34,368 nucleotides of DNA from Gammaproteobacteria bacterium 42_54_T18 (GTDB taxonomy: Bacteria > Pseudomonadota > Gammaproteobacteria > Pseudomonadales > Ketobacteraceae). A program made the position numbers and the translations under genes. The stretch covers positions 1-34,368 of the forward strand of contig MAAL01000086.1 of the NCBI GenBank assembly GCA_002163245.1. The letters are read 5' to 3'. Of this stretch, positions 32,087 through 33,996 are shown one piece after another (the stretch's first letter is position 1; each line of letters begins with the position of its first letter). The notes below the pieces were generated by a model. The model saw only the letters and a program-made list of their open reading frames with translations, made no database searches and was not told the DNA's origin.

Positions 32087-32569
32087 TTAGCATGCTGTTG
32101 TAACAGACCCTACAACGCCTTTTACGCCTGCTCCCGTCGACCCATCATAAGTCACCATACAATCAACTGTGCTATTTAATCTAAATTGGCGTTGCCCCCC
32201 TGAATTTACAACCACGAACCCGCCAATATCATCAACAACCAAGTCAATACCATTGGCTGACTCTTCTGGGTAACCAAAATCTACCCTAAGATCAACGCCA
32301 TTACCATCAGTGTTATCACCGTCATCATTCCAGTCCACATACAAGTTGGCACCGTTGAGATTAATACCTCCAAGCTGCGCCTTGCCATTGACAGATTCAA
32401 TAGCCGAACGCATGCCGTCTTCAAAATTCTCAACGATAACAACACGAGACTCTGAACTCATATCCGCAAAACGGGGCAATGCTACCGCTGATAAAATCCC
32501 GATAATAACAATCACCACAACGAGCTCTATAAGGGTAAAACCCCGTTGATTGGCTGAATACGTTCTCAT
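32087..32569 (-). CDS. Type IV-type prepilin (MSHA/T2SS-like)
   Basis: A 160-residue prepilin. The class III leader MRTYSANQRG is cut before FTLIELVVVIVIIGILSAVALPRF, with the required Gly at -1 and Glu at +5, which anchors the N-methylated helix. The globular part is Asp/Gly-rich (DWNDDGDNTDGNG) and ends with a disulfide-like loop (Cys in VDCMVTYDG and the final Cys). The helix and the ADMSSESR sequence resemble MSHA-type pilins. GGGGAAG about five bases before ATG 32569 supports this start; the frame extends to 32683 but without pilin character. No assembly genes are nearby, so it is an orphan subunit. Confidence 0.88.
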   Translation of the reverse strand: MRTYSANQRGFTLIELVVVIVIIGILSAVALPRFADMSSESRVVIVENFEDGMRSAIESVNGKAQLGGINLNGANLYVDWNDDGDNTDGNGVDLRVDFGYPEESANGIDLVVDDIGGFVVVNSGGQRQFRLNSTVDCMVTYDGSTGAGVKGVVGSVTTAC

Positions 32570-32737
32570 ATAACTTCCCCAACATCTAATTAATTCAAAT
32601 AGGTTACTTAAATAATAGGGGAGTACAAAAAATACGCTAGTTATTTTACTCACAGGCACACTGAGCTGGCGTTGCAGCAACAATAATAATAACCGCCGCG
32701 CACCTTAATAAAAACTGCCTTTTCAAGGGCCAAAAAC

Positions 32738-32772
32738 AAAAAAAGCGGGGCCGGTAATTTCCGTGCCTCGCT
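32738..32772 (-). terminator. Intrinsic terminator of the CsrB-type RNA
   Basis: On the minus strand AGCGAGGCACGG pairs with CCGGCCCCGCU around the loop AAAUUA (one A-C mismatch and one bulged A), followed directly by seven U (32744-32738). This sets the RNA's 3' end within a few bases. Confidence 0.85.
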
Positions 32773-33082
32773 CAGCTCAGGCGTTTCAGCCTAGTTGCAT
32801 CCTGTCCTTTTATCGTCATCCATAACGAATATCCCTCATCACGTCCATGCAATCAGCATGGGCTCCATGATTTGTCCTTGCACAACCCTTGTGCACATTG
32901 CTTACATTCCTTAGCAGCAATTTCCCTATGGCCTCCAAATCCGTGGGGGCTCATTGGTAGTCCGTTAATCCTTTCTTATAAATCCTTTTCAATACTCTTT
33001 TTGATACATCCTGTATCAAGATCCTTTAACACAACATCCTGTTGTGCTGAGCAACATCCTTTGCCCTTGTGTCCCTGAGTAC
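32738..33082 (-). ncRNA. csrB: CsrB-family CsrA-sequestering small RNA
   Basis: The minus strand of this gene-free region carries about 20 GGA motifs in roughly 345 nt, ten of them AGGA, evenly spread. Three sit in hairpin loops: TTGATACA-GGA-TGTATCAA (33001-33019, matching the CsrA SELEX consensus RUACARGGAUGU), CACAACA-GGA-TGTTGTG (33030-33046) and GCAA-AGGATG-TTGC (33051-33064). The 3' end is a strong GC-rich terminator followed by seven U. A promoter with TTGAGC (33117-33112), 16-base spacer and TAAAGT (33095-33090) would start near 33082. The size and motif count match E. coli CsrB (369 nt, 22 GGA). Such RNAs titrate the translational regulator CsrA/RsmA. No protein frame here is credible. 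CsrC or a large RsmB form are equally possible names. Confidence 0.85.
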
Positions 33083-33089
33083 GGAGCCT

Positions 33090-33117
33090 ACTTTATCGTT
33101 TTTCTGACGCCGCTCAA
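33090..33117 (-). promoter_or_regulatory. Candidate promoter of the CsrB-type RNA
   Basis: Minus-strand TTGAGC (33117-33112) and TAAAGT (33095-33090), separated by 16 bases, each match four of six consensus positions of sigma-70 elements and lie just before the first GGA motif. The start point near 33082 is a prediction. Confidence 0.45.
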
Positions 33118-33172
33118 TGGGGGGCAGGGGCATTTTCTCACCCCCGTCTAATTCATGAAATACTTTCTTCTT

Positions 33173-33190
33173 TGTATTCAACAAGTTACA
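33173..33190. promoter_or_regulatory. Weak GacA/UvrY-like box
   Basis: TGTATTCAACAAGTTACA has the outer TGTA...TACA of the TGTAAG-N6-CTTACA box that GacA-type regulators bind upstream of csrB/rsm RNA genes, but the inner AG/CT bases are not kept. It lies about 100 bases upstream of the predicted RNA start. Suggestive only. Confidence 0.3.
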
Positions 33191-33239
33191 CGCTTTTGCA
33201 GATATTCTACCACCACATTAGCGCAAAAGGATCACAGCA

Positions 33240-33259
33240 TTGTGAGATATATCGCACAA
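33240..33259. promoter_or_regulatory. 20-bp palindrome, CRP-like or TetR operator
   Basis: TTGTGAGATATATCGCACAA is an inverted repeat with one mismatched pair. It contains TGTGA-N6-TCGCA, one base from the CRP/Vfr consensus TGTGA-N6-TCACA. A further half-site, ATCTCACAA (33274-33282), is the exact complement of the left part. It sits between the csrB-type RNA and the TetR gene and could serve either. Confidence 0.5.
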
Positions 33260-33411
33260 ACAAACAGGCCACTATCTCACAACGGAGCTTTGACCAAAAA
33301 GCACTCAACGTCATAAAAGCCAACTGATTACGCAAATGCTCTCTGGTTATCCCAACTAATCCTGATTACACTGCGCTCCATTACCCTAGAAAATGCGATT
33401 AGGAGTACCTC

Positions 33412-33996
33412 ATGGGGCGCAAAAGCTTAAAAACTGAACGTGTCACACAAATACTTGACGCATTCGAACGCTGCATGGAGCAAAAAGGGTTAGAAAGCAC
33501 CACATTAGATAACGTCGCGAAAGAGGCAGGTGTAGCGCGTCGCATCATCCGGCATTATGTGGGAAACAGGGATGAACTGATACAAACAGCCGTTGATCGC
33601 ATTATTGATAAGTTTTCTGATCAGGTGTTTGATGTCATAGAATCCTCCGAATCGGATAATCGCTTTGACTCCGGGCTTAATTATATTTTTAGTAGTGACT
33701 TTAATGCGCTTCCGATTAACCGCTTAGTCGCTGCTCTTTTACCCGTTAGCTTACATGATGAGCGGGTACAACAAGCCGTTAAGAAAATATACGATGCGTT
33801 TCACACCGGTCTTGATCAAGAACTAGCAAACCACCTACCTCTTGCTCCAGAAAGTAAACGTAGCGATGTTGCCTACTCCATTATGTGCTTAGCATTTGGC
33901 GGTGGCTGGATGGGTAATATTGGTTTCTCGGTGGAGAAAAATCAATTGAATAAAAGCATTGCTCAAGGGTTAATTATTAATTTAGTAACAAACTGA
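33412..33996 (+). CDS. TetR/AcrR-family transcriptional regulator
   Basis: A 194-residue repressor-type protein. The HTH is at residues 10-55: VTQILDAFERCMEQKG, then STTLDNVAKEAGV and ARRIIRHYVGNRDEL, where the recognition helix has ARRIIRHYV in place of the more common KGTLYHYF. The C-terminal domain, with LAFGGGWMGNIGF, is a ligand-binding helical bundle. AGGAG lies eight bases before the ATG. It has no same-strand target gene next to it except the partial gene 124 bases downstream; the palindrome at 33240-33259 may be its own operator. Confidence 0.88.
   Translation: MGRKSLKTERVTQILDAFERCMEQKGLESTTLDNVAKEAGVARRIIRHYVGNRDELIQTAVDRIIDKFSDQVFDVIESSESDNRFDSGLNYIFSSDFNALPINRLVAALLPVSLHDERVQQAVKKIYDAFHTGLDQELANHLPLAPESKRSDVAYSIMCLAFGGGWMGNIGFSVEKNQLNKSIAQGLIINLVTN

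Follow-up and report, generated by a model that had tools for sequence, protein, structure and literature searches.

Does the gap between two divergently oriented protein genes in this contig encode a regulatory RNA and, if so, how does that RNA relate to the CsrA sponges of better-known bacteria? The window, by which we mean the whole 34,368-nucleotide stretch analysed, contains a 728-base gap (32684-33411) flanked by a pilin-like gene on the minus strand (32087-32605, Pfam N_methyl) and a TetR-type gene on the plus strand (33412-33996). A sequence-only reading had placed in it an unannotated CsrB-type RNA on the minus strand, with about 20 GGA motifs in 730 bases. The GGA-rich stretch proved to be real: within 32738-33082, GGA occurs 20 times on the minus strand and never on the plus strand. 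The count of 20 held for these 345 bases, but the gap as a whole holds 23, the other three lying at 33352-33379, outside the RNA.

We compared this motif content with that of shuffled sequence. Dinucleotide shuffling of 32738-33082 gave a mean of 10.7 GGA (sd 2.2), and none of 5000 shuffles reached 20, which places the observed density far above the background. Sites of the form A(N)GGA numbered 16, as opposed to 3.5 in dinucleotide shuffles, a count also reached by 0 of 5000. Across both strands of the entire 34 kb, the GGA-richest 345-base segment was 32738-33082 on the minus strand, and the runner-up had 13. Such an excess of GGA and A(N)GGA on the transcribed strand is a feature of the CsrA-titrating class of sponge RNAs. 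One motif had been presented as a match to the CsrA SELEX consensus, RUACARGGAUGU (PMC7652899), which turned out to be incorrect: AUACAGGAUGU is one base short of the consensus and lacks the R preceding GGA.

The minus strand of 32738-33082 folded with a predicted minimum free energy of -99.9 kcal/mol (z -2.77), and 0 of 100 shuffles were equally stable. In sampled structures, GGAs occupied hairpin loops in 33% of cases and were unpaired in 75%, compared with 14% and 48% in 100 shuffles preserving GGA units, none of which reached either value. The earlier placement of GGAs in hairpin loops was thereby confirmed for the predicted fold, and their display in loops or single strands is a further feature of the sponge class. 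For three other full-length copies and a second sponge, both described below, the loop or unpaired value was reached by 0-2 of 100 shuffles. Reading along the minus strand, the predicted fold presents a loop GGA in hairpins at 33049-33066, 33030-33047 (GCACAACAGGAUGUUGUG), 33001-33019 (UUGAUACAGGAUGUAUCAA), 32932-32949 (the ACGGAUU region), and 32898-32920, followed by a hairpin at 32879-32895 (UGCACAAGGGUUGUGCA) with a loop devoid of GGA and by the hairpin CCAUGCUGAUUGCAUGG at 32845-32861. A 28-nt block at 32813-32840, identical in all five known copies, contains a terminal hairpin (UCGUUAUGGAUGACGA) with a loop GGA; a 24-base piece of this block has an exact match in the sequence records of relatives.

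On the same strand, an interrupted GC stem followed by seven T (32738-32771) would act as the intrinsic terminator. It folds at -16.5 kcal/mol (z -3.06), in keeping with a terminator that had been called unmistakable, but the terminator scan did not list this interrupted stem, and by eye the two copies in genome G003 have no clear T run at this point. Six helices, five of them with a loop GGA, were tested on five sequences, and 98.1% of cells could pair versus 30-46% when slid. These helices showed no excess of covariation across the five sequences (112 of 500 shuffles scored as high), with changes being almost all one-sided. The hairpin at 32845-32861 has U-A, U-G, and C-G at one pair across copies and was the sole one with two-sided changes; its covariation was not significant (65 of 500 shuffles reached its score), and three of its pairs fail in G003, whose stem differs there. 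With so few sequences and scores that did not exceed those of shuffles, we rejected covariation as proof of structure. The predicted structure is backed by energy and conservation, not by covariation.

A DNA search covering 57 genomes (own, genus, family, and order) returned matches in five. The RNA and its control region were present in four of the five genomes of the genus, counting its own. The fifth matching genome, G005, matched over only 36 query bases, and G004, the remaining member of the genus (87% complete), had no DNA match to the RNA. The five copies are those in the window, G001, G002, and G003, the last having two in tandem with their upstream boxes 745 bases apart. A second match in G001 (L008) was rejected as a paralogue: the two G001 matches each sit at the end of a contig and cover overlapping parts of the query, and we take them for a single gene that was cut in two during assembly. 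Relative to the window, the first 288 nt are 89% identical in G002 and 70-73% in the G003 copies, as against 78% and 66-67% over the preceding 177 bases. Thus, judged from these alignments, the putative RNA is better conserved than the bases preceding it, within which the box, the IHF-like site, and their spacing are kept.

The surrounding genes are less constant. The upstream TetR gene of the window is common to G001 and G002, its position in G003 is taken by a 292-aa gene that looks AraC-like by eye, and the gene downstream of the RNA differs among the window, G001, G002, and G003. Neighbouring genes change while the RNA persists, which implies that the RNA is its own unit. This bears on whether the stretch, instead of being a free sponge, could be an extended 5' leader through which CsrA controls the pilin-like gene (32087-32605, minus) in cis. 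Stretch and gene do share a strand, and CsrA is described as binding mRNA leaders such as those of glgC and cstA (PMC7652899). However, a predicted terminator lies between them, the 20 sites far exceed the up to four mentioned for cstA in that source, and relatives keep the RNA next to a different downstream gene. We therefore regard a leader as very unlikely and a separate RNA gene as the preferred reading.

Upstream of that gene, all five copies carry a GacA/UvrY-type box. In the window it is an 18-bp inverted repeat at 33241-33258 on the minus strand (plus-strand TGTGAGATATATCGCACA), centred about 167 bp upstream of the probable transcript start at 33083; in G003 it reads TGTGAGATATCTCTTACA, and both are near-palindromes. 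Between the end of the box and the conserved CCGTACTC at the probable start there are 156-157 bases in all five copies. The window box is near-identical to the UvrY operator of E. coli csrB, TGTGAGAGATCTCTTACA, which is reported to be centred at -183/-182 (PMC4682653). An upstream 18-bp inverted repeat of this kind is a feature of GacA/UvrY-controlled sponge genes, to which this gene would belong by its upstream sequence. In all five copies, an IHF-like site starts 52 bases past the box. It reads TAACTTGTTGAAT in the window (33176-33188, minus) and has one mismatch to the IHF consensus, YAANNNNTTGATW, in three copies and none in the two G003 copies.

The sequence-only reading had also described a plausible promoter. 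By eye, the candidate elements are a -35 TTGAGC (33112-33117, minus) and a -10 TAAAGT (33090-33095, minus), both within a conserved block and separated by 16 bases, from which transcription would start near 33083. This arrangement is conserved in five of five copies, but a sigma-70 scan at its threshold found no promoter on either strand. With 8 of 12 positions agreeing with TTGACA/TATAAT, the putative promoter is weak by consensus.

The genome also encodes candidates for the proteins with which such an RNA would work. CsrA, whose presence in the same genome is a feature of the sponge class, had one match (119 bits versus a cut-off of 73). GacA, the counterpart expected for a GacA/UvrY-controlled gene, was identified by equivalog NF007018 (324.7 bits versus 280) in the gene order gacA-uvrC-pgsA. 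A BarA-like kinase of 963 aa had BarA as its best NCBIfam match, at 809.9 bits, which is below the equivalog cut-off of 890, along with the Pfam domain sCache_4 (25.2 versus 22.1).

Covariance models were less decisive. Applied at their gathering scores, Rfam models gave no match in the window, nor in eight of the genus's loci that hold a sponge or a box. At a permissive threshold, the CsrB model (RF00018) aligned end to end at 32735-33064 with an E-value of 3.4e-8, but with a score of 36 bits it remained below the gathering score of 71 bits that defines membership. The covariance check suggested by the earlier reading thus returned a full-length match that falls short of the family's threshold. 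Of the combination named there as a computational refutation, a covariance search with no hit plus unremarkable GGA density, neither part was observed. No CsrB match was listed for the two G003 copies even at E-values up to 1, and one of them matched RsmZ at 18.1 bits (E 0.14). RsmZ (RF00166) had no match in the genome at an E-value of 0.001, with 100 of 100 candidates scored. Given the sub-gathering CsrB score and the unlisted G003 copies, the covariance-model evidence is weak, and the CsrB alignment is a pointer rather than proof of RF00018 membership. A CsrB search across genomes scored 103 of 190 candidates in one run, which found the second sponge on contig C1 and missed that of the window, and 53 of 190 in another, which found neither; with candidates only partly scored, these misses prove nothing. 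On the plus strand, 32677-32716 matches CrcZ at 17.6 bits (gathering score 95); the sequence there is an A-rich CAACAATAATAATAAC stretch, and the match is probably due to chance.

A score beneath the Rfam threshold is what a functionless purine-rich spacer, decayed or arisen by chance, might give. Such a spacer would not be expected to hold a GGA count that 0 of 5000 shuffles reach, to be better conserved than the 177 bases before it, or to retain its box, IHF-like site, and spacing, and we consider this explanation highly improbable. That the stretch codes for a small protein is scarcely credible. The gap holds short frames only; those overlapping the RNA reach 68 aa (plus strand) and 52 aa (minus strand). 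G002 has a 113-aa frame antisense to the RNA, but the window lacks it, with no frame at this place longer than 68 aa, and the alignment includes gaps whose lengths are not multiples of three.

We conclude with considerable confidence that the minus strand of 32738-33082 encodes a small RNA in the functional class of CsrB and RsmZ, a predicted CsrA sponge. By computation, there is a motif excess with stable folding, conservation together with control elements, persistence beside changing neighbours, and a CsrA, a GacA, and a BarA-like kinase in the same genome. The CsrB-type reading was upheld by motif density and placement, by conservation, by a GacA/UvrY-type operator and an IHF-like site spaced much as in csrB, and by these trans-acting factors. 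From this configuration we infer that the gene is transcribed, that GacA and IHF bind upstream of it, that the RNA titrates CsrA, and which phenotypes it would control. A BarA/GacS-type kinase would phosphorylate the GacA/UvrY-type regulator, which in its phosphorylated form would bind the inverted repeat at 33241-33258. IHF would presumably bend the intervening DNA, and transcription would be activated from near 33083, yielding a transcript of about 345 nt with 20 GGA that terminates at 32738-32771. Its many GGA sites, around one-third of them in hairpin loops, could then capture CsrA dimers and pull them away from target mRNAs. The earlier reading named motility, biofilm, and carbon storage as processes under its control; these roles are carried over from other bacteria and may apply here by analogy.

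A more specific proposal is that these copies represent a sponge lineage belonging to the genus that keeps its own GacA-IHF control unit as its neighbourhood changes, with a 28-nt 3' block that does more than hold CsrA. The block is identical in five copies, compared to 70-89% identity to the window for full copies overall. We view this combined proposal as unlikely; if true, the extra role of the block might be, for example, the setting of RNA turnover or pairing with targets.

The RNA had been described as the organism's CsrA sponge. It is a predicted sponge, but not the sole one: a second CsrB-like RNA lies at C1:43401, between fdxA and rpoS, which makes the RNA in the window a sponge of this organism and not the sponge. 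The CsrB model scores 38.3 bits, below gathering, on a shorter stretch of this second locus; the whole locus (L002) gives RsmY at 21.3 bits and no CsrB. A mutS-like frame, read by eye, lies beyond fdxA. The second sponge has DNA matches in four of the five genomes of the genus, its own included, and none in G001. Its box has one mismatch to the pattern TGTRRGANATNTCNYACA.

How specific is the box? The pattern TGTRRGANATNTCNYACA, which was composed after several of these boxes had been seen, was found 33 times, in 11 of the 15 family genomes, and read backwards it was found in none of the 15. Allowing one mismatch in the window's own genome, the backwards control gave 1 and 1 places versus 4 and 4. 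Fourteen of the 33 exact boxes are followed by 14 or more GGA, counted over 300 bases or whatever the contig end leaves (345 for the copy in the window). Another six, by our reading, precede a short GGA-hairpin RNA adjoining fdxA (7-11 GGA). The other 13 have no recognisable sponge after them, including one with 11 and one with 10 GGA per 300, and may serve other genes. Hence, the box alone is not a marker for sponges, but the box combined with GGA density is.

Several further loci came to light in the course of this survey. A third sponge type, in which a box lies close to a GGA-rich stretch, was seen in G002:C65 (L044:1-325) and G001:C260 (L049:600-960), which are 91% alike; it had no match in the genome of the window. 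In G005:C1, of the same family, L052:1628-2240 has a GacA box and then a very long GGA-rich stretch near an fdxA-like gene, with 40 GGA in 613 bases, 2 on the opposite strand, and a maximum of 38 in 2000 mononucleotide shuffles. This stretch includes a perfect 14-bp tandem array of 7.9 copies with one GGA per unit, has a terminator-like end by eye, and matches RsmZ weakly (22.9 bits versus a gathering score of 44); one possibility is an expanded CsrA sponge, perhaps variable in copy number. In sister genus g4, RNAs resembling sponges also lie next to an fdxA-like gene and have GacA boxes (L054, L056, L057, L059, L060, and L062). Five of these six loci have two exact boxes, before one short and one long RNA, and L056 has one exact box; CsrB-model matches to the long RNAs spanned 279 nt in G012 and 276 nt in G009.

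Other boxes lie beside protein genes. In four sister-genus genomes (L053, L055, L058, and L061), a GacA box occupies a corresponding place before a gene of 219 aa, which is listed for three of them. The one such protein that was scanned had a SprT-like domain, just below cut-off, as its only Pfam match, and the gene is a possible direct GacA target rather than a sponge. Boxes near lipoprotein-looking genes were observed in the genome of the window (L039:1489-1506, contig C99) and at L041 and L043 (G002 among them), with no adjoining GGA-rich RNA at these three loci. An exact box at L038:1506-1523, on contig C38 of the window's genome, lies near a DUF4158-domain gene and has no GGA-rich RNA.

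These results add a well-supported predicted CsrA sponge in a gammaproteobacterial genus known from draft records, in which Rfam thresholds find none. It is very probably a new representative of a familiar class of regulator, here overlooked by standard RNA annotation. Sponges that score below the covariance-model thresholds can be recovered from a GacA box combined with GGA density downstream of it, although searching for sponges by such features is not itself new (PMC2375449, PMC5568370). A narrow literature search found no paper on this lineage. The novelty is modest because Vibrio species are already reported to carry two to four csrB copies, some of them by duplication, with four in V. 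tasmaniensis (PMC6262261).

Among known systems, the RNA resembles CsrB of E. coli and relatives in length (about 345 nt versus 356 model positions), in repeating CAGGAUG-type sites in hairpin loops, and in its intrinsic terminator. As in E. coli csrB, a UvrY-type inverted repeat lies far upstream, reportedly at -183/-182 there and at about -167 here, with an IHF-like site between it and the promoter. It differs from CsrB in that its 36 bits fall short of the gathering score of 71 and the G003 copies are not listed as CsrB; although not an RF00018 member by the family's own threshold, it has control logic that looks csrB-like from the arrangement of its putative sites. With RsmZ and RsmY of Pseudomonas (RF00166, RF00195) it shares GGA loops and a TGTAAG-N6-CTTACA-type GacA box; the second sponge of this genome sits among mutS, fdxA, and rpoS, which are also named for the Pseudomonas rsmZ region (PMC4353343). 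However, the RNAs of this type in P. fluorescens SS101 are given as 118 and 133 nt with eight GGA (PMC4353343), whereas the RNA in the window is approximately 2.6-2.9 times longer, has 20 GGA, and has other neighbours. The multiple csrB copies described for Vibrio offer a parallel in having several sibling sponges per genome, some from duplication. Unlike in Vibrio, the sponge described here coexists with one of different sequence between rpoS and fdxA, and in G003 it forms a tandem pair.
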